DNA from: Trichococcus alkaliphilus
GTDB lineage: Bacteria; Bacillota; Bacilli; Lactobacillales; Aerococcaceae
DNA length: 48,627 nucleotides
NCBI RefSeq assembly: GCF_003008695.1
Contig: NZ_PXZT01000019.1
Span: 1 to 48,627 of the forward strand
Reading direction: 5' to 3'
In this document: piece after piece, positions 14,120-46,649 of the stretch
Layout: every line of letters starts with the position of its first letter
Position numbering within the stretch: position 1 is the first letter of the stretch
Program-made: the position numbers and the translations under genes
The notes under the pieces: generated by a model
What the model was told of the DNA's origin: nothing
Databases searched by the model: none
The model's input: the letters and a program-made list of their open reading frames with translations, nothing else

Positions 14120-14287
14120 CTGATACGGCATGGGTAAACCCATGGATGGGACTGTTCACAGCAGTCACCATCAAACATCCACATCCTGTGGTTGTGCAAG
14201 CACGTATGTCCCGTTTGATTTGCAATCACTTCGCCGCTTGCGCGGAATGGGCGAACCCACCTGATTGCTCGTCGCCTCATCGCATGT
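14067..14287 (-). ncRNA. Structured non-coding RNA of about 220 nt, family not identified
   Basis: The minus-strand sequence folds into consecutive perfect stems. GCAATCA (14268-14262) pairs with TGATTGC (14228-14222) and encloses two hairpins, TGGG-TTCG-CCCA and CCGC-GCAA-GCGG, capped by UUCG and GNRA tetraloops. ATCAAAC (14219-14213) pairs with GTTTGAT (14176-14170) and encloses GTG-CTTG-CAC and CCACA-GGA-TGTGG. GACTG/CAGTC (14166-14150) and CATGGG-TTTA-CCCATG (14144-14129) follow, then a strong terminator. It has its own extended -10 promoter. No convincing reading frame spans it. It does not look like 6S, tmRNA, SRP or RNase P RNA. A family such as the raiA motif should be tested; I cannot assign one. 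Confidence 0.7.
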
Positions 14288-21067: not shown

Positions 21068-21592
21068 TCACCCGGAATAGAGGATGCCCGCTTCCTGCAA
21101 TTCCTTTTTGATGCGCAGGAATGTTTCTTCATCCTTGCAGGCAAGCGTATGAAGATGCACGCCGCCGGTCAGCGAAGACAACATCGCCGCTTCATTTGAT
21201 GCGATTTTCGACATAAAGTCGATGACATCATGGCGCGAACGGATATGCAATTCACCGGTCAAGGTTCCGTAGACCGGATGCTCAACCTGGACATCCACGA
21301 CCTCGCCGCCATTGTCAACGATGATGTTCAGTTCCGTCACCGTCTCGGCCCGCGTATGCTGGCAGGCAATTTTGCCTGTGAACAGACTGCCTTCGCCCTT
21401 GAATGCATTCGCGGAAAGATAGCCCCGTGGCGTTGCCAGGATTTCAATCCCTTTAGCACGGATCAATGCGATATCGCCCACGATGACCTGACGGCTGACC
21501 GATAATAGTTCAGCCAGTTGGGTGGCGTTCACCGGTTGGTCTGTGGCCTCCAATAATTTGATGATTTCATTTCGTCTCTCTGCTGCTTTCAC
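21068..21592 (-). CDS. niaR: Niacin-responsive transcriptional repressor NiaR
   Basis: An HTH_11 DNA-binding domain (residues 1-60; ATQLAELLSVSRQVIVGDIALIRAKG) is followed by a 3H domain named for three conserved His (TRSR-H, GGVHLHT region). It binds niacin and represses niacin transport or NAD biosynthesis genes. 174 residues from the GTG at 21592, which has AAGG 9 nt upstream. The frame runs on to 21796 without a better start and would overlap pheA. It lies 96 nt upstream of niaX in the same direction, with the operator between them. Confidence 0.92.
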   Translation of the reverse strand: MKAAERRNEIIKLLEATDQPVNATQLAELLSVSRQVIVGDIALIRAKGIEILATPRGYLSANAFKGEGSLFTGKIACQHTRAETVTELNIIVDNGGEVVDVQVEHPVYGTLTGELHIRSRHDVIDFMSKIASNEAAMLSSLTGGVHLHTLACKDEETFLRIKKELQEAGILYSG

Positions 21593-21668
21593 AACACTCA
21601 CCCTTCCGTAACGCGTTCTCTCCCTAATAGTACCCATTTTTGCCCCGGACTGCAAGAATCGTAAATCA

Positions 21669-21712
21669 AAAAGCCAGCAACGCACCGCACGAAGCGGTTG
21701 TTGCTGACTTTT
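21669..21712 (-). terminator. Terminator of the aromatic operon
   Basis: AAAAG-CAGCAAC pairs with GTTGCTG-CTTTT and CCGC with GCGG inside. On the minus strand it is followed by TTTTTGATTT, just after the pheA stop. Confidence 0.85.
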
Positions 21713-21713
21713 C

Positions 21714-22859
21714 TTATTTGTTTTCGATAGCGGCCTTATAGCAGCCCAAGAGCCTGAAATAGACGCTGCTCCGGTGGATGAAGCGCAGGGCTTCATGGAC
21801 GTTTTCGTCGGCGATGTTGCCTTCGAAATCCAGGTACAGCAAGTACTCCCATTTTTCCCCTTCGACGGGGCGGGATTCGATTTTGATCAGGTTGATGTGG
21901 TACCTTGCGAAATGACGCAGCAGCTTGAACAGGGTTCCGGCTTGGTTGTCAAGGGAGAACACCACACTGACTTTATTGCAGCGCGGATTCGACTCGAGAT
22001 CCTTGCCGACGATGATGAAGCGGGTCGTGTTTTCGCTCTGATTCTGGATGCTCTCCGCCAAGATGGCGAGGCCATGGATCTGTGCGGCCCTTCTGCTGGC
22101 GATGGCGCCTTTATGCGCATCACCGGAGTCCTTCACCATTTTCGCGCTGTCGGATGTGCTGTGGAACGGAATCTGACGCCACTGCTCGTGGTCCTTGAAA
22201 TAATCGGTGGATTGCTGGAAACCTTGCGGGTGCGAATAGACTTCCTCGATCTGATCCAGACCGGTCCCTTCCAGGCCGATCAGATGCTGCTCGATTTTGA
22301 TGTATTGCTCTCCCACGATGGATAGGCCGTATTTGTACAACAGATCAAGCACTTGTGAAATCGCACCAGTGGAAGAGTTTTCCACTGGCAGAACGCCATA
22401 ATCGATTTCCCCACTCTGGATACCCAGGAACAGCGATTCAAAGGTATGGTAGTTTTTCGGATCGCGGGGGGCTTCCTTGAAATAGGCCAACATCGCTTCT
22501 TCGCAGAACGAGCCCGTTTCCCCAAAATAACCGATCTGCGCGTGCTCTTTTGGATCGTAGATCGCAAAAATCTGTTCATAATCATTCGAAGCCGCCCGGA
22601 CATCCTTTTGGACTTCCTTCGAAAGATCCATGATCGTATCCAAGAAATGATGGGTCTGCACCGCAAACTCTTCACTCTTCAGATGGGTAAGATTCTTTTC
22701 CACGACGCGTTGCTCACGGCCTTCGTCAAAGATGGGCAAATCATGCACCAGCTTATAATTGCCGATGGCTTGGGAAATGTGCATCCGTTTTTCGAACAAA
22801 GCCACAAGCTCCTGATCAATAGCATCCAACTCTTTGCGATAGTCTTCTAAATCCGTCAT
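21714..22859 (-). CDS. pheA: Bifunctional chorismate mutase / prephenate dehydratase (P-protein)
   Basis: Converts chorismate to prephenate and on to phenylpyruvate, the Phe branch. 381 residues in three parts. An AroQ-type chorismate mutase spans about 1-90 (YRKELDAIDQELVALFEKRMHISQAIGNYK). The prephenate dehydratase core spans about 105-280 (GETGSFCEEAM, VLPVENSSTGAI, NTTRFIIV). A C-terminal ACT domain has the ESRP Phe-binding motif. Many Firmicutes keep the two enzymes separate, so the fusion is worth noting. It lies 20 nt after aroC, last in the operon, ahead of a terminator. Allosteric inhibition by Phe through the ACT domain is expected. Confidence 0.94.
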   Translation of the reverse strand: MTDLEDYRKELDAIDQELVALFEKRMHISQAIGNYKLVHDLPIFDEGREQRVVEKNLTHLKSEEFAVQTHHFLDTIMDLSKEVQKDVRAASNDYEQIFAIYDPKEHAQIGYFGETGSFCEEAMLAYFKEAPRDPKNYHTFESLFLGIQSGEIDYGVLPVENSSTGAISQVLDLLYKYGLSIVGEQYIKIEQHLIGLEGTGLDQIEEVYSHPQGFQQSTDYFKDHEQWRQIPFHSTSDSAKMVKDSGDAHKGAIASRRAAQIHGLAILAESIQNQSENTTRFIIVGKDLESNPRCNKVSVVFSLDNQAGTLFKLLRHFARYHINLIKIESRPVEGEKWEYLLYLDFEGNIADENVHEALRFIHRSSVYFRLLGCYKAAIENK

Positions 22860-22879
22860 ACTCGCCTTCCACTCCGTTC

Positions 22880-23977
22880 TCAGTCGTATTTATAGAATTT
22901 GGAATCCAACAGCAGATCCAGGATCGCGATCGCCGTCACGGCTTCCAATACAGGAATGGCGCGCGGTACGATGATCGGATCGTGTCTGCCTTCAACCGAT
23001 AATTCCGCATCCGTCTTGTCTTCGATGTTGATGGTTTGCTGCAGCTTCGTGATGGATGCTGGCGGCTTGATCGCCACTTTGTAGATGATCGGCATGCCAT
23101 CCGTGATGCCACCCAAAATACCGCCGTTATGGTTCGTGCGGGTCTTGATCTGGTCGCCGTCATAATAATAGGAATCATTCGCTTCCGATCCAAGCATTTC
23201 TGCGATGCCGAAGCCGCTTCCGAATTCCAAACCTTTGATGGCAGGCACAGAGAAAAGAATATGCGCCAGAACGGACTCAACGGAATCAAAAAACGGATTG
23301 CCGACTCCTGCTGGGATGCCCAATACACAAATTTCCGCGGTTCCACCAACGGAATCACCGCTGGCTTTTGCTTCGCGGATCAGATTGCGCATTTCCTCTT
23401 CAAGCGACTCGTTCAACAACGGAAGTTCTTTACTTGCAAAGCTTTTCAGCATTTCCGGTGTGACTTCCGTGTTCAGAAAGCTGTCATCCTGGATTTTGGC
23501 TACGCTCTTCACGTGGCCACCGATTGTGATACCTTGTTTTTCAAGCAATTGCTTCGCGATCGCACCAGCAAACACTAACGGTGCCGTGATCCGGCCGGAG
23601 AAATGGCCGCTGCCGCGGTAATCATTGAAGCCGTCGTAACGGACATAGCCTGGGTAATCGGCCTGGCCGGGACGCATCAATTTTTTCATCTGGCCGTAGT
23701 CTTTGGAACGCGTATCGCTGTTGCGGATGATCGCCGCAAGCGGGCTGCCTGTCGTCATGTCGTTGAAGTAACCGCTCAAGATTTCAGGCTGATCTTTTTC
23801 TTTCCTTGGCGTCGTCAATGCCCCTTGGCCTGGCGCTCTCCGTTTCATTTCCTCCAGAACTTTATCCATATCGATTTTATGGCCTGGCGGCAAACCGTCG
23901 ATGGTGACGCCGATTGCGGAACCATGTGATTCGCCGAAGATGGATACCTTTAATTTATTCCCAAATACACCGCTCAT
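22880..23977 (-). CDS. aroC: Chorismate synthase
   Basis: FMN-dependent enzyme making chorismate from EPSP. 365 residues. Conserved segments are FGESHGSAIGVTIDGLPPG at the N-terminus, RRAPGQGALTTPRKEKD, the DYRGSGHFSGRIT region and TNHNGGILGGITDG. The start overlaps the aroA stop by 4 nt, and GGAGG sits 9 nt before the ATG. Confidence 0.97.
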   Translation of the reverse strand: MSGVFGNKLKVSIFGESHGSAIGVTIDGLPPGHKIDMDKVLEEMKRRAPGQGALTTPRKEKDQPEILSGYFNDMTTGSPLAAIIRNSDTRSKDYGQMKKLMRPGQADYPGYVRYDGFNDYRGSGHFSGRITAPLVFAGAIAKQLLEKQGITIGGHVKSVAKIQDDSFLNTEVTPEMLKSFASKELPLLNESLEEEMRNLIREAKASGDSVGGTAEICVLGIPAGVGNPFFDSVESVLAHILFSVPAIKGLEFGSGFGIAEMLGSEANDSYYYDGDQIKTRTNHNGGILGGITDGMPIIYKVAIKPPASITKLQQTINIEDKTDAELSVEGRHDPIIVPRAIPVLEAVTAIAILDLLLDSKFYKYD

Positions 23978-25269
23978 TGTATCTTGCCTCCTATAGCTTT
24001 ATAGTCTTCCCAAAAATTCGGATACGATTTTGAAACGCATTCGGCATCCGTAACCGTGATCGGCTGTTCACAGACTGTCGCAGCGATTGCCAGCATCATG
24101 GCGATGCGGTGGTCTTTGTAGCTCCAGACGGTCTCTCCGCCCTTCAGTGATTTGACGCCATGGATCAACAGGCCTTCCGGAAGTTCTTCGATGTCAGCGC
24201 CCAGTTTCTTCAATTCGCTGGCCGTCGCTTGCAGACGATCGCATTCTTTGATGCGCAGTCTGCCGGCGTTGATGATTTCCGTTCTGCCTTCGCTCAGGCA
24301 AGCCGTCAACGCGACGACCGGAATGATGTCCGGGCATTGCGCCGCATCGATCAGCGTGCCGTGCAATCCGGCTGTTGCCGTGCCAATCAAACCGTTGCCC
24401 TGTTGTTCAAAAGTGACGCCCATCGCTTCCAAAATGGAAACGACAGCGCGGTCACCCTGTAGCGAATCCATCGAGAGATCGTCCACCAACAGATCGTTCC
24501 CTAATGCGTCTGCGCAAAGGAAGAAGGCTGCTTGGGAATAATCCCCTTCGACCCGGTAATCCGTCGCTTTGTAGGATTGACCACCCTTAATCCGGAAGAG
24601 TTGATGGTCTTCGTTTTCGATGGTGACACCGAAAGCGCTCATGACATCCAACGTCAAATCGATATAGCCGATTGATTCAAGTGGCGTCGTGATTGTGATG
24701 ACCGAGTCCCCGTCCAACAATGGCAAAGTGAACAAAAGGCCCGTGATGAATTGTGAGCTGACATTTCCGGGAAATGAGAAGTGACCCGGTTTCAGGTTCC
24801 CATCCACGACCAAATCGAGCTCGCCTTCAGTCGGTTTGTAAGAGATGCCTTGTTCCTCGAAAATATCGTAGAAGATGGTCAATGGACGTTTGCCCAGATT
24901 CCCTCTTCCGATGAAGCGGCTCGCGCCTTGGAAAAGCGTCGAAATCGGAACGACAAAACGCAAGGTCGAACCGGATTCATTGCAGTCGATCAGGTGCTCA
25001 GCGGTCGTTGCGTCCCCAGCTGCTTTTGCTTCTGTAACGTATTGGCCAGCGCCGGTGATCGTCAAAGTGCTGCCGTCCTGCTCGATGATTGCTCCGAATG
25101 CCTTCATGGCCTCTGTAGTTGCGATGATGTCATCCGAGAGTGCGATGTTATCGATCTTGCAGGTGCCGTCGGAAAGCGCGGCACAAATGACCGCACGGTG
25201 CGCCAAACTCTTTGAAGGCGGGACAGTCACTGTTCCCGATAGCTTATGTGGCTGTATCGTCAAATCCAT
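23974..25269 (-). CDS. aroA: 3-phosphoshikimate 1-carboxyvinyltransferase (EPSP synthase)
   Basis: Transfers enolpyruvate from PEP to shikimate-3-phosphate. 431 residues with the two-domain repeat. Visible motifs are VPPSKSLAHRAV near the N-terminus, NESGSTLRFVVPIS, GDYSQAAFFLCADAL and RIKECDRLQATASEL near the C-terminus. GGAGG is 6 nt before the ATG. It lies 59 nt after aroB and overlaps aroC by 4 nt. Confidence 0.97.
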   Translation of the reverse strand: MDLTIQPHKLSGTVTVPPSKSLAHRAVICAALSDGTCKIDNIALSDDIIATTEAMKAFGAIIEQDGSTLTITGAGQYVTEAKAAGDATTAEHLIDCNESGSTLRFVVPISTLFQGASRFIGRGNLGKRPLTIFYDIFEEQGISYKPTEGELDLVVDGNLKPGHFSFPGNVSSQFITGLLFTLPLLDGDSVITITTPLESIGYIDLTLDVMSAFGVTIENEDHQLFRIKGGQSYKATDYRVEGDYSQAAFFLCADALGNDLLVDDLSMDSLQGDRAVVSILEAMGVTFEQQGNGLIGTATAGLHGTLIDAAQCPDIIPVVALTACLSEGRTEIINAGRLRIKECDRLQATASELKKLGADIEELPEGLLIHGVKSLKGGETVWSYKDHRIAMMLAIAATVCEQPITVTDAECVSKSYPNFWEDYKAIGGKIQ

Positions 25270-25328
25270 TGTAATCCTCCTGTTTGTTTCTTCGATTTTA
25301 TTTCTTCTGTTTCTTCTATAGTATAGTT

Positions 25329-26402
25329 CTACATGTTCTCCAAATCGTCAAAGAAGGCGATAGTTTCATCCTGAACGTAGCTGATGCCGATTTCCTTCAA
25401 CAGGATAACTTTCAGATGGTCGTCCAAATTCTTTTTGTCCAACGTCATGATCGCCAGCAAACTGTCCAAATCAACTTCTTCGATATGCAGTTCTGTAGGC
25501 AAGCCGACTTGTTTAGCCAATGCTTCGATCGCCGCTGCAGTACCAAGTTTTGTGAAGCCTTTTTTCTCGGAAAGGCGTGTGATCGCGACCATCCCGATCG
25601 CCACCGCTTCACCGTGCGAATATTTTGCATAATTGGTGTATGTCTCCAAAGCATGAGCGATCGTGTGCCCAAAGTTCAGCAGCATCCGTTCGCCGGTGTC
25701 CTTCTCATCCTCTTCCACGACTCTGCGCTTAATGTCGCAGCACGTATAGAGGATCTTTTCGATGTGCGCCATCATCTCTTCGCGGGTATGCAGCGTCTGC
25801 AGGAAGCTGAAGAATTCGGCGTCCTTGATGCAGCCGTATTTGATGACTTCCCCGAGACCGTCGCGGAAAAAGTGGTCCGACAACGTGTTCAGCATTTCCG
25901 GGTCGATGAATACTTTCTTCGGTTGGTTGAAAGCCCCGACCAGATTCTTCCCTCTTGCCAGATCGACGCCGACCTTGCCGCCGATGCTGCTGTCGACTTG
26001 GGCCAACAAGGAAGTCGGGATTTGGATGAAAGGCACGCCGCGCAGGAAGCTGGCAGCCGCAAAGCCTGCGAGGTCCCCGATGACGCCGCCCCCCAAGGCA
26101 ATGATCAATTCACTGCGGTTCAGTTGGAAATCCAACAATTGGTCGTAAATCTGCGGCAGCATCTGGAAATCTTTCGTCTGTTCGCCGGCCGGCAAGGCAA
26201 CCACAAGCGTCTCGTACCCTGCAGCCTGCAGACCAGCCTCCAACTGGGAACCGTAATGCGCATTGACGTTGTGGTCCGTGATGATGGCAATCTTCTTGCC
26301 GCTGTAGATTTTTTTGATTTCTTCCGGAAGACGGTGGCGCAAGCCATTTTCGATCAGGATCGTATAACTGTTTTTGCCGAGCCCTACATGTAATTCAGCC
26401 AT
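25329..26402 (-). CDS. aroB: 3-dehydroquinate synthase
   Basis: NAD- and metal-dependent cyclisation of DAHP to 3-dehydroquinate. 357 residues. It shows ALGGGVIGDLAGFAAASFLRG (NAD loop), PTSLLAQVDSSIGGKVGVD, and the metal-binding HGEAVAIGM and LNFGHTIAHALE regions. The frame reaches 26417, but GAGGAG is 7 nt before the ATG at 26402 and that start gives MAELHVGLG. It follows DAHP synthase by 61 nt. Confidence 0.97.
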   Translation of the reverse strand: MAELHVGLGKNSYTILIENGLRHRLPEEIKKIYSGKKIAIITDHNVNAHYGSQLEAGLQAAGYETLVVALPAGEQTKDFQMLPQIYDQLLDFQLNRSELIIALGGGVIGDLAGFAAASFLRGVPFIQIPTSLLAQVDSSIGGKVGVDLARGKNLVGAFNQPKKVFIDPEMLNTLSDHFFRDGLGEVIKYGCIKDAEFFSFLQTLHTREEMMAHIEKILYTCCDIKRRVVEEDEKDTGERMLLNFGHTIAHALETYTNYAKYSHGEAVAIGMVAITRLSEKKGFTKLGTAAAIEALAKQVGLPTELHIEEVDLDSLLAIMTLDKKNLDDHLKVILLKEIGISYVQDETIAFFDDLENM

Positions 26403-26463
26403 TGTTTCACTCCTCATTCAGATTTCATTCAGATTTCGTTTTTTATCAAGGAAAGTTCTTCCT

Positions 26464-27489
26464 TTATTTTACCGCATCCAAATGCTTTCCTTCAATGGCA
26501 ATCAACTGTTTTACGACAGCCATCAACTCATCGAACTCATTCGGGTTCAGGCACTGTTGGCCATCGCTCCATGCGTTCTCAGGATCGTGGTGGATTTCGA
26601 CCATCAGACCGTTCGCGCCGGACATGACTGCGGATTTGGACATGGATGGCACCAGGTAAGCAGAACCGCCGGCATGACTTGGGTCGATGATGATCGGCAA
26701 GTGGGATAATTTTTGGATGACCGGAACGGCTTGGATATCCAAGGTATTGCGTGTTTCCGTTTCGAATGTGCGGATGCCGCGTTCGCAAAGGATGACGTTT
26801 TCGTTCCCTTCGGACATGATGTATTCAGCAGACATCAACCATTCTTCGTAAGTTGCGGACAGACCGCGCTTCAATAGGACTGGCGTCTTTGTTTTGCCGA
26901 CTTCCTTCAGCAGATCGAAATTCTGCATGTTGCGTGCTCCGATTTGGATCATATCGACATCCGCCTCGAACTCATCAACGAATTTCGTGGACATCAATTC
27001 GGTTACGATCGGCAAGCCAGTCGCTTCCTTCGCCAATTTCAGCAAGCGCAAGCCTTCCAATTCCAAACCTTGGAAGCTGTATGGGGATGTGCGCGGTTTG
27101 AAAGCTCCACCGCGGAGGAAGTTAGCGCCTGCGGCTTTTGCGCGTTGCGCGATGCTGATGATCTGTTCTTCGCCTTCAACGGAACAAGGACCTGCGATCA
27201 CGCCGAAGTAGCCGTTACCGATGCGTTGGCCATCGATTTCGACAACCGTATCGTCCGGATGGAATTTGCGGTTGGCCTTTTTGTAAGGCTCCTGAACTTT
27301 CAATACGCGTTCAACGATATGATGTTGCTGAATAGTGTCCATCGATACTTTCGAAGTATCCCCTACCAAGCCCAAAATAGTCATTGTTTCGCCGATTACC
27401 GGGCTCACGATGACCCCTTTATCCGTTAAGCGTTTTGTCAGTTCGTCGATTTCCTCTTTTTTAGCCGTTTTCTTCAAAATGATGATCAT
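26464..27489 (-). CDS. aroF: 3-deoxy-7-phosphoheptulonate (DAHP) synthase, type I-beta
   Basis: Condenses PEP and erythrose-4-phosphate, the first step of aromatic biosynthesis. 341 residues. A ferredoxin-like N-terminal domain (about 1-70) of the kind used for Tyr/Phe feedback in Thermotoga-type enzymes precedes the barrel. Barrel motifs are GPCSVEGEEQI, LRGGAFKPRTSPYSFQG and IIDPSHAGGS. AGGAGG is 9 nt before the ATG. It is the first gene of the minus-strand operon, directly behind a leader-peptide attenuator (27522-27762). Both feedback inhibition and attenuation probably limit flux here. The symbol is by family; aroG/aroA(G) names are also used. Confidence 0.95.
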   Translation of the reverse strand: MIIILKKTAKKEEIDELTKRLTDKGVIVSPVIGETMTILGLVGDTSKVSMDTIQQHHIVERVLKVQEPYKKANRKFHPDDTVVEIDGQRIGNGYFGVIAGPCSVEGEEQIISIAQRAKAAGANFLRGGAFKPRTSPYSFQGLELEGLRLLKLAKEATGLPIVTELMSTKFVDEFEADVDMIQIGARNMQNFDLLKEVGKTKTPVLLKRGLSATYEEWLMSAEYIMSEGNENVILCERGIRTFETETRNTLDIQAVPVIQKLSHLPIIIDPSHAGGSAYLVPSMSKSAVMSGANGLMVEIHHDPENAWSDGQQCLNPNEFDELMAVVKQLIAIEGKHLDAVK

Positions 27490-27521
27490 GTCTTGTTCCT
27501 CCTAAGTATGTTTTTGCTTTT

Positions 27522-27561
27522 AAAAAAATAAAAAGCGGTGCCCATGTTATATGAGCACCGC
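27522..27561 (-). terminator. Attenuator terminator before DAHP synthase
   Basis: On the minus strand GCGGTGCTCAT (27561-27551) pairs with ATGGGCACCGC (27545-27535), an 11-bp stem with one G-U and a 5-nt loop, followed by TTTTTATTTTTTT. It stands 33 nt before the DAHP synthase ATG, between promoter and gene, so it must be conditional. Confidence 0.85.
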
Positions 27562-27644
27562 GTTAAGCTTCGTTATCCAAAAATGCTGTTGCCTGACGAG
27601 CCGTCCTGCAACCTATTTCTCGCATCCTCTGATGTTTCTCATAT
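27549..27644 (-). promoter_or_regulatory. Candidate antiterminator pairing of the aromatic attenuator
   Basis: ATATGAG (27644-27638), inside leader codons 40-42, is exactly complementary to CTCATAT (27555-27549), the distal part of the terminator 5' arm and loop. Between them a separate hairpin directly follows the leader stop (GTTGC 27612-27608 with GCAAC 27592-27588; GACG/CGTC inside). A ribosome stalled on the aromatic run leaves ATATGAG free; one that reaches the stop codon covers it. The 7-bp pairing is a proposal. Confidence 0.45.
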
Positions 27645-27762
27645 TCGCTCTATGCAATTTTTTCCAAACAAAATATCCAGCGCTAAAATAGAAGCCCCAG
27701 AATGTAAAGTATGTAAAGTAAAAGTTTGTTTGTAAAAGATTGATAGCATGCGTGGAACCCAT
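27613..27762 (-). CDS. Aromatic leader peptide of the DAHP synthase operon attenuator
   Basis: A 49-residue frame from ATG 27762 to TAG 27613. AGAGG is 7 nt before the ATG, and a promoter lies about 70 nt upstream. Residues 14-33 contain 13 aromatic residues (FYFTYFTFWGFYF then YFVW): seven Phe, four Tyr, two Trp. The rest is ordinary and basic at the end. Its position between promoter and attenuator terminator of the aromatic operon is that of a leader peptide whose translation senses charged tRNA-Phe, -Tyr and -Trp. The 'protein' probably has no function of its own. No T-box sequence is present in this leader. Confidence 0.85.
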   Translation of the reverse strand: MGSTHAINLLQTNFYFTYFTFWGFYFSAGYFVWKKLHRANMRNIRGCEK

Positions 27763-27830
27763 CGGATGACCTCTTCTCTTGTGTATCATTTAATCAGCTG
27801 AACTCATAATGAAAACGTCTGATTTCAATC

Positions 27831-27858
27831 ATTATAACAAACGCTCTAATCATTGCAA
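27831..27858 (-). promoter_or_regulatory. Promoter of the aromatic leader and operon
   Basis: TTGCAA (27858-27853), 16 nt and a perfect TATAAT (27836-27831) on the minus strand. The predicted start near 27824 gives an approximately 335-nt leader before DAHP synthase. Confidence 0.7.
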
Positions 27859-27893
27859 TAGTTTTTTAATTTTTTTTTAATTTAATCTGGGTA

Positions 27894-27922
27894 TTGAAAT
27901 TTGCATGGCAATAATCTACACT
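27894..27922 (+). promoter_or_regulatory. Candidate aroE promoter
   Basis: TTGAAA, 17 nt and TACACT on the plus strand, giving a short leader (about 15 nt) before aroE. This arm therefore carries no attenuator. Confidence 0.5.
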
Positions 27923-27944
27923 TTCCTAAAAGGAGTGAAACTTA

Positions 27945-28754
27945 ATGCAATTTTTCGGCTTATTCGGCGAACATCTCAGCCACAGTTATTCAGAAAGAAT
28001 CCATTCGACTTTTTTCGATCTGATCGGAATGAATGCCGGTTATAAACATATTGAATTGCCCTTTGAAGAGTTGGAAGCGGCGATTGAAGGGATCCGCGTG
28101 CTTCAGTTTGTCGGCGTCAACGTGACGATTCCCTACAAACAGACGGTGATGGCTTACTTGGACGAAATCACACCGGAAGCGACGCGCATCGGTGCTGTCA
28201 ACACAATCAAGGTAAAAAACGGTAAACTGTACGGCGCCAATACCGATTATTACGGATTCGGAACCATGTTGGCTTCACACGACATTGCGGTAGAAAACAA
28301 AACAGCCATGGTTTTGGGCTTCGGCGGTTCCGCAAAAGCAGTCGTTTTATATTTGCTTGATAACGGCATCAATAAGATTATCATCGTTTCACGGAAAAAA
28401 GGCTCCCTGACTGATATTCCGGAGGATCCTCGCATCTCCTTGATGAGTTATGATGAGATAACGAACATCTCAGGCGATCTGATCATCAATACGACACCGC
28501 TCGGCATGTTCCCTGACAACATCGGCATCAGCGCGGTGCCAGTCGAAGTGATCCGTCAATTCAGCGCAGCCGTGGACCTGATCTACAACCCGCAGGAAAC
28601 GGAATTCCTTCGCTTAGCGAAAACAGCAGGCCTGAAAACCTGCAACGGATTGGAAATGTTGGTGCATCAAGGCATCAAATCCCAGGAAATCTGGCTGGAA
28701 CGGCCATTCGAACTTGCATTGAACCAAGAAATCTATGAAAAAATAACATCATAA
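27945..28754 (+). CDS. aroE: Shikimate dehydrogenase
   Basis: NADPH-dependent reduction of 3-dehydroshikimate. 269 residues. Conserved sites are SHSYSERIHS near residue 12 (substrate Ser pair), NVTIPYK (catalytic Lys about 65), GAVNTI, NTDYYGF (catalytic Asp about 103), the GFGGSAKAVV nucleotide loop and GLEMLVHQG at the end. AAGGAG is about 9 nt before the ATG. First gene of the plus-strand aromatic arm, divergent from the DAHP synthase operon. Confidence 0.95.
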   Translation: MQFFGLFGEHLSHSYSERIHSTFFDLIGMNAGYKHIELPFEELEAAIEGIRVLQFVGVNVTIPYKQTVMAYLDEITPEATRIGAVNTIKVKNGKLYGANTDYYGFGTMLASHDIAVENKTAMVLGFGGSAKAVVLYLLDNGINKIIIVSRKKGSLTDIPEDPRISLMSYDEITNISGDLIINTTPLGMFPDNIGISAVPVEVIRQFSAAVDLIYNPQETEFLRLAKTAGLKTCNGLEMLVHQGIKSQEIWLERPFELALNQEIYEKITS

Positions 28755-46521: not shown

Positions 46522-46544
46522 TAGCTATAACTAAATAGACCGTT

Positions 46545-46630
46545 TCACAAAGGGGTGCCTTCATGGCTGAGATTGAACATAGATTCTGACCCTTCGAACC
46601 TGTTCGTTAACACGAGCGTAGGGATTGTGA
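46545..46630 (+). promoter_or_regulatory. TPP riboswitch
   Basis: Contains the THI-box hallmarks in order: GGGGTGCC, GGCTGAGA, ACCCTTCGAACCTG and GTAGGGA. P1 is TCACAA (46545-46550) with TTGTGA (46625-46630). It controls thiT directly downstream. Confidence 0.95.
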
Positions 46631-46649
46631 TTGAGAAATGAAATTCATT

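Follow-up and report, generated by a model that had tools for sequence, protein, structure and literature searches.

A putative ribosome-mediated attenuator with a Phe-, Tyr- and Trp-rich leader peptide upstream of aroF in Trichococcus alkaliphilus

The region upstream of the DAHP synthase gene aroF of Trichococcus alkaliphilus very probably contains a ribosome-mediated transcription attenuator. The element was found in a stretch of 48,627 nt (contig NZ_PXZT01000019.1), referred to as the window in the following, and all of its features lie on the minus strand (Table 1). A preliminary description of the window had proposed this mechanism. The proposal is supported by the conservation of the element within the genus, by the preservation of the aromatic run next to drifting flanks and by covarying pairing in homologous leaders of other families, all of which can be read from the sequences. 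The promoter, the ribosome binding site, the 49-codon frame with its stop codon, the post-stop hairpin and the U-tailed terminator were all found where the preliminary description had placed them.

Table 1. Features of the aroF leader region and of the genes downstream (window coordinates)
Feature	Position	Strand	Basis or remark
-35 element TTGCAA	27853..27858	-	sequence and alignment of congeners
-10 element TATAAT	27831..27836	-	sequence; TG ahead of the hexamer
Shine-Dalgarno sequence AAGAGG of the leader frame	27770..27775	-	sequence
Leader peptide frame, 49 codons and stop	27613..27762	-	ATG at 27762, TAG ending at 27613; kept in 11 of 11 genus genomes with DAHP synthase, own genome counted
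Aromatic run, control codons 14-33	27664..27723	-	7 Phe, 4 Tyr, 2 Trp
Small conserved hairpin in the aromatic codons, UCUGG.GCU-loop-AGC.CUGGA	27676..27701	-	pairing across 10 rows
Long hairpin, 5' arm	27725..27745	-	predicted
Long hairpin, 3' arm	27651..27673	-	predicted
Putative antiterminator strand AUAUGAG, leader codons 40-42	27638..27644	-	weak alone; homologues support it
CUCAUAU within terminator 5' arm and loop, putative partner of AUAUGAG	27549..27555	-	pairing analysis
Post-stop hairpin	27589..27611	-	predicted
Intrinsic terminator stem-loop, 11 pairs	27535..27561	-	kept in congeners including L019
Terminator U tract, TTTTTATTTTTTT	27522..27534	-	sequence
aroF, DAHP synthase (PF00793, TIGR01361), first controlled gene	26464..27489	-	domain matches
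aroB, aroA, aroC, pheA (chorismate mutase/prephenate dehydratase)	21714..26417	-	presumed one transcript with aroF

The two promoter elements are separated by 16 nt and match the consensus in 10 of 12 positions. Within 27450-28000 four promoter-like sites were counted on both strands, compared with a mean of 1.5 in shuffled sequences. Transcription probably starts a few nucleotides past the -10 element, near 27824. An upstream ATG in frame with the leader at 27789 would give a 58-codon alternative, but this codon is missing in the congener locus L017 and is out of frame in L019, and the 49-codon start is therefore preferred. The codon count bore out the 13 aromatic codons previously claimed for codons 14-33, and the 49-codon leader contains no further ones; the two Trp codons are numbers 22 and 33. 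In the absence of a ribosome the long hairpin is predicted to close over the aromatic codons. One intrinsic terminator was found (shuffle mean 0.2).

When the 455-nt intergenic region was shuffled 3000 times with its dinucleotides preserved, a run of 13 aromatic codons in 20 never arose, the maximum being 10. The window has 475 ATG frames with a length of 15-100 codons, and the leader ranks first among them, the runner-up having nine aromatic codons. As is typical of ribosome-mediated attenuators, many codons of the leader frame specify the regulated amino acids, a terminator is situated between the leader and the first structural gene, and the element precedes genes for the synthesis of the amino acids that are read. 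It lies between the aroF set and a divergent set consisting of aroE, aroK and the prephenate dehydrogenase gene. Directly after pheA, and overlapping its end in the list of open reading frames, a regulator with HTH_11 and 3H domains is encoded (21068-21796, minus strand), which may be part of the aroF-pheA transcript. Elsewhere in the window a TPP riboswitch (46541-46641, plus strand) precedes a predicted membrane protein of 191 amino acids, which we take to be a thiamine transporter, and a match to RF02840 (Ref68, Lacto-3 RNA; an Enterococcus small RNA family) is located at 14151-14284 on the minus strand.

In the mechanism that we infer from this arrangement, RNA polymerase would start near 27824 and a ribosome would translate the 49-codon leader. 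When charged tRNA-Phe, tRNA-Tyr or tRNA-Trp is scarce, the ribosome would stall within codons 14-33. Its front edge would then remain short of codons 40-42, leaving AUAUGAG free to pair with CUCAUAU, and once this pairing had formed transcription would continue into aroF-aroB-aroA-aroC-pheA. With plentiful aromatic amino acids the ribosome would traverse codons 34-49 and the pairing would be lost, allowing the terminator (27561-27535) to form and the transcript to end near 27522. Transcription may pause at the hairpin within the aromatic codons, which would keep the polymerase in step with the ribosome.

Within the genus, 11 of 13 genomes (the own genome counted) contain DAHP synthase; the other two are about 63% and about 51% complete. 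All 11 genomes carry the leader frame with its aromatic run. Seven of the 10 other peptides are identical to the 49-residue peptide of the window and two are 98% identical, so that most congeners individually say little. The remaining one, L019, is the most divergent congener (71% peptide identity), and its aroF is 86% identical in nucleotides. In L019, 65 of 69 nt and 21 of 23 residues are unchanged over codons 11-33, whereas the flanks have drifted, with 14 of 27 nt unchanged in codons 2-10 and 29 of 48 nt in codons 34-49. Two residues of the run differ, Tyr25 being replaced by Phe and Trp33 by Cys; L018 likewise has Cys at position 33. The terminator and both pairing strands are kept at all 11 loci, and in L019 the stem is kept with altered letters, one pair being changed on both sides. 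The conservation in related genomes anticipated by the preliminary description was thus found. When the 49-residue leader was searched in 395 genomes of the order, 41 genomes matched at E values up to 0.1. Eleven of these are the genus itself; the scores of the remaining 30 (best E 0.003) suggest chance matches.

The complementarity of ATATGAG and CTCATAT had been pointed out before; it is present and recurs in homologues, but the window copy by itself is not beyond chance (367 of 2000 shuffles as good, 427 of 500 for the duplex energy; p = 0.163). Since this match is unremarkable against shuffles, the window alone does not prove an antiterminator. The pairing was reached by 80 of 2000 shuffles in L019 and by 98 of 2000 in L170. 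For eight of the 11 genus loci, the window's own among them, the RNA downstream of a ribosome stalled at codon 33 was folded. With the RNA ending at CUCAUAU, the predicted pairing probability was 0.46-0.55 in seven loci and 0.94 in L019; with the RNA ending 7 nt further, it was 0.73-0.78 in seven of the eight loci and 0.97 in L019. Without the ribosome it was 0.02-0.08 in seven loci, but 0.86-0.94 in L019. When the whole leader was folded, the free-energy minimum contained the terminator even behind a stalled ribosome, and the attenuator model consequently depends on co-transcriptional kinetics. The stop codon lies about 22 nt past the end of codons 40-42, and a ribosome paused at it would leave these codons uncovered; termination must therefore depend on moving ribosomes or on upstream hairpins. 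Other strands of the window are also able to pair near the terminator, namely AGCGCTG (codons 27-29) with CGGTGCT and GGGCTTC (codons 22-24) with GAAGCTT immediately 5' of the terminator. In L170 no counterpart of the AGCGCTG:CGGTGCT pairing was seen by eye.

Outside the genus, leaders sharing the motif G-[FY]-[FY]-F-S-[AV]-G, or nearly so, were found before DAHP synthase at L170 (an f2 genome) and in records titled Pelosinus MAG, Clostridium MAG, Clostridium ganghwense, Provencibacterium MAG, Lachnospiraceae MAG and Clostridia MAG. In seven of nine representatives of this FSAG branch the best-pairing strand is located 30-35 nt after FSAG, the distance in the window leader being 31 nt. The core ATGAG/CTCAT occurs at six of the nine loci with covarying flanks: L009 (the window's own locus) and L019 have ATATGAG/CTCATAT, other loci of the branch the variants TGATGAGT/GCTCATTA, AAATGAGT/ACTCATTT, AATGAGTTT/GGGCTCATT and TAATGAGT/ACTCATTA. 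Singly, the pairing was significant in L170 (p = 0.036), L070 (0.015), L071 (0.004), L072 (0.010) and L084 (0.017) and not significant in L009, L019 (0.064), L086 (0.239) and L108 (0.808). Fisher's combination over the nine loci gave p = 1e-5; the near copies L017 and L018 were computed only and left out of it.

A profile of eight FSAG-type leaders was run over 398 genomes of the phylum and matched 15 of them, the own genome counted, which makes the branch a patchy one; 13 of the other 14 have DAHP synthase downstream. After the near copies L333 and L337 (of L332 and L334) had been dropped, a terminator could be placed at 10 of 11 loci of this later set, none being found at L336. One rule was applied to all loci, and the motif and the terminator arm were chosen by hand. 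The combined pairing p over the 10 loci was 4.9e-7, five of them lying below 0.02. The other five (L328, L334, L335, L338, L340; p 0.18 to 0.57) were not significant. The strand lies 30-38 nt after FSAG at seven of the 10 loci, two of these seven not being significant, and L332 pairs AGTGAGGTTT/GAATCTCACT, a change within the core (AGTGAG/CTCACT). The later loci are not fully independent of the earlier nine, since part of the leader tail went into the profile and there are relatives among the loci (L327 resembles L072). Taken from these sequence comparisons, an antiterminator appears supported for the FSAG branch, with weak support for the window copy.

The small hairpin within the control codons has the form UCUGG.GCU-(8 nt)-AGC.CUGGA. 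All of the 11 tested 27-nt segments fold around its core, the details differing notably in L072, L086 and L095. In an alignment of 10 rows, from which L086 with a loop one codon longer was omitted, 93.8% of the 80 cells pair compared with 25-44% in slid-partner controls. The covariation score was reached in nine of 500 shuffles; two pairs are changed on both sides, a count that was reached in 218 of 500. The Ser codon is AGC in every listed FS[AVL]G, and in L095 a Thr codon, ACC, is found instead. The letters required by the hairpin would explain this choice of Ser codon. The structure is possibly a pause hairpin.

In the family of the window organism DAHP synthase was matched in 32 of 76 genomes. 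By eye an aromatic-rich frame was counted directly upstream of it at 26 of the 30 loci fetched, and was not seen at L020, L021, L023 and L029. Among 80 named, mostly clostridial loci, 53 have an upstream small frame with at least five aromatic residues in nine codons. Mononucleotide shuffles, 100 each, were applied to these 53 frames only: 39 frames exceed every shuffle, 11 were reached by one to four and three (L080, L085, L097) by six to 11. Trp codons are present in the branch leaders L070, L071, L072, L328, L330 and L334 but not in L170 and L331, and the leaders of other branches mostly contain Phe and Tyr codons only. The claim that one leader reads all three aromatic amino acids is hence true for the window, but Trp33 is Cys in two of the 11 genus genomes, and L170, L331 and most of the leaders compared from other branches have no Trp codon. 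Since the Trp codons vary among the relatives, Trp sensing seems to be optional.

Forty further regions were taken, mostly upstream of the gene ahead of aroF, which by eye is aroE in many of them. In 21 of the 40 a leader ends in or near QLNNYYFSYFR; 23 regions were checked by pattern and the other 17 by their two best small frames, among which none was seen. The Rfam family RF02863 (sRNA_2410) overlies the leader end and the following region, on the strand of the leader, at six of 20 scanned loci, namely L278 (1180-1369), L269, L272, L273, L279 and L283. It had no match in the window or at L019. As it overlies the leader region of the operon, sRNA_2410 probably is a terminated leader. An alignment of 17 of the 21 loci (16 distinct rows, without L295-L298) was scored for three helices. 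The share of cells that pair is 98.9% for the leader codons CUUUAGCUAUUUUAGAUA and a strand further downstream (1:2), 95.8% for this strand and the terminator 5' arm (2:3) and 96.5% for the two arms of the terminator (3:4), the slid-partner controls giving 25-50%. Column shuffles back only the 3:4 terminator, which was reached by 0-2 of 500 on four measures and by 151 on a fifth. The 2:3 helix is no better than the shuffles (reached by 103-122 of 500), and the 1:2 helix, reached by all of them, hardly varies and so cannot be judged in this way. In many of the loci L269-L285 a second intrinsic terminator, its 5' arm CACTGTAGAT-like and resembling that of the first, was seen by eye downstream of the first one and ahead of the gene that follows, possibly forming a double attenuator. 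By eye, an ABC transporter ATPase gene is situated just 5' of the leader at several of the loci L273-L284.

Pairing between the leader tail and the terminator arm was assessed at 27 loci with arms set by hand or by script, the arm of L038 being doubtful. At 17 of them (L024-L028, L030-L032, L034, L036, L037, L218, L269, L278, L295-L297) the pairing was matched by at most 12 of 500 shuffles and at four (L022, L035, L283, L298) by 29-54; at six (L009, L017, L019, L033, L038, L170) it was not significant. The conserved SDFCC/GDFVV tails of L028, L030-L032 and L034-L038 were considered as a peptide signal, and this was rejected: at seven of the nine loci the tail codons are able to pair with the 5' arm of the terminator, which no more than 11 of 500 shuffles equalled, so that RNA pairing explains their conservation. 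A KSDFCC-type leader profile matched 20 of 395 genomes, eight of them at DAHP loci; the remaining 12 matches (E 2.6e-4 to 0.009) were put down to chance on inspection by eye. On balance, we lean towards the view that an old and widespread family of aromatic-codon attenuators guards the entry into the shikimate pathway in Bacillota. In the FSAG branch, comprising the window's genus, an f2 genus, records titled Clostridium and Pelosinus and other clostridia, the frame would also encode a pause-type hairpin within the control codons and an antiterminator strand at an almost constant distance of 30-38 nt after FSAG. Members of the family would then have entered the record as an sRNA of Enterococcus and possibly as riboswitches of Streptococcus.

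We considered other mechanisms for the element. A metabolite-binding riboswitch for an aromatic compound, with an incidental small frame, would fit the strong RNA conservation in the sRNA_2410-type relatives, and the possibly related gbs2033 and gbs1262 of Streptococcus agalactiae have been read in this way (PMC4448216). An aptamer, however, would preserve a fold and not codons, and the in-frame aromatic run with start and stop recurs across families amid different RNA folds. Moreover, no Rfam family reached its gathering score in the window element, the five sub-threshold matches (E 1.4 to 9.4) looking like chance. A riboswitch is accordingly improbable. We give similarly little credence to a nascent-chain arrest peptide that would respond, in the exit tunnel, to a free aromatic amino acid and not to starvation at the codons. 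The FS[AV]G motif shared by the window's genus, an f2 genus and clostridial leaders speaks for it, yet the encoded hairpin (GCU...AGC, CUGG), with AGC as the Ser codon throughout the listed motifs, accounts for much of this motif, and the peptides of other relatives differ, sharing mainly their aromatic density. Besides, a biosynthetic operon needs induction upon shortage, and codon stalling supplies this directly.

That the aromatic run is the transmembrane helix of a small membrane protein, separated from aroF by the terminator, is very unlikely. The run consists of 20 largely hydrophobic residues followed by KK, but L019 shows no exchanges of Phe or Tyr for Leu, Ile or Val, some relatives have short and mostly polar leaders such as MKNTRQPKLNNYYFSYFR, and in many of them the tail encodes an RNA pairing strand. 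Control by a T-box or by TRAP hardly comes into question. T-boxes are common in this genome of 2.96 Mb (26 matches to RF00230, 14 of them over the cut-off), and the genes behind them include, from their translations, pheS, tyrS and trpD as well as a second DAHP synthase of the AroFGH type (NCBIfam; L309, contig C21, 62800-64600). The specifiers, with the register read by eye, are UUC for pheS, UAC for tyrS, UGG for trpD and UUC (Phe) for the second DAHP synthase; the pheS T-box scores below the gathering score. However, a single T-box reads one tRNA, and the covariance-model search gave no match in the window (contig C10), confirming the claim that no T-box is present at the leader. The coexistence of these T-boxes with the aroF leader means that the same genome combines single-tRNA T-boxes with a leader capable of reading three tRNAs.

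The attenuator reading places the element in a known kind. The trpL, pheL and ilv leaders of enterobacteria represent classical ribosome-mediated attenuation, and the aroF leader resembles them in its richness in the regulated amino acids, in the alternative of antiterminator and terminator and in the U-tailed terminator before the operon. It differs in the combination of Phe, Tyr and Trp codons before a common pathway, in the Gram-positive host, in the putative antiterminator strand inside the leader frame and in the small hairpin that lies within the control codons. Amino-acid control in Firmicutes usually relies on T-boxes and TRAP, and Panina and colleagues reportedly published a paper on aromatic regulation in Gram-positives in 2003. 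The preliminary description had assigned classical attenuators to proteobacteria and mostly T-boxes or TRAP to Gram-positives. There is indeed no T-box here, but leader-peptide attenuators of Gram-positives have already been shown for the branched-chain amino acids.

Experimentally supported examples are Rli60 of Listeria monocytogenes, earlier predicted as a riboswitch or sRNA (PMC5864092), and the ilv-leu leader of Staphylococcus aureus (PMC5794164). Ribosome-mediated attenuation of branched-chain synthesis is reported for these two species (PMC6123439, PMC5864092, PMC5794164), and the two systems differ from the window element in the amino acids concerned and in additional CodY control (PMC5864092, PMC5794164). 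Comparative prediction has also yielded leader-peptide attenuators in Firmicutes, in this case for histidine operons with three to five consecutive His codons, in the Bacillus cereus group, Peptostreptococcaceae and Erysipelotrichales (PMC9413887, available in part). Closer in function is uORFC-13-1, a predicted upstream frame with a Phe codon and a terminator before Acholeplasma aroF; the available part of PMC8632094 gives 24 representatives, in Acholeplasma and environmental sequences only, and notes at least one Phe codon. The leader of our Acholeplasmataceae-titled locus L140 is MFQTFAYYYYYQM. sRNA_2410 of Enterococcus faecium is listed with 195 nt and was detected by RNA-seq and, as two transcripts, by Northern blot, which is as expected of a terminated leader; it is catalogued as an sRNA, and the accessible part of PMC5593968 gives no attenuator reading. 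Similarly, gbs2033 and gbs1262 are described as prematurely terminated leaders that possibly sense aromatic amino acids or their precursors and are conserved in Lactobacillales, one of them preceding aroFBC-tyrA of E. faecium (PMC4448216); they may be related to the present leaders. The available part of PMC4833913 contained nothing on the window element. The preliminary description knew of no described example in the group. In the full-text literature outside subscription journals we recognised no description of the leader itself or of the whole family, but leaders of the wider kind are on record under other names.

A leader that may read three tRNAs before a common-pathway operon represents a logic beyond that of a single T-box. 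Should the breadth suggested by the survey be real, the family would fill a gap in the control of the shikimate pathway in Bacillota and would give a role to sRNA_2410, a catalogued RNA of unknown function. The element also makes it testable whether the coupling of transcription and translation in these bacteria is tight enough for classical attenuation. Its broader interest lies in the apparent size of a little recognised family and in the re-reading of a catalogued RNA.
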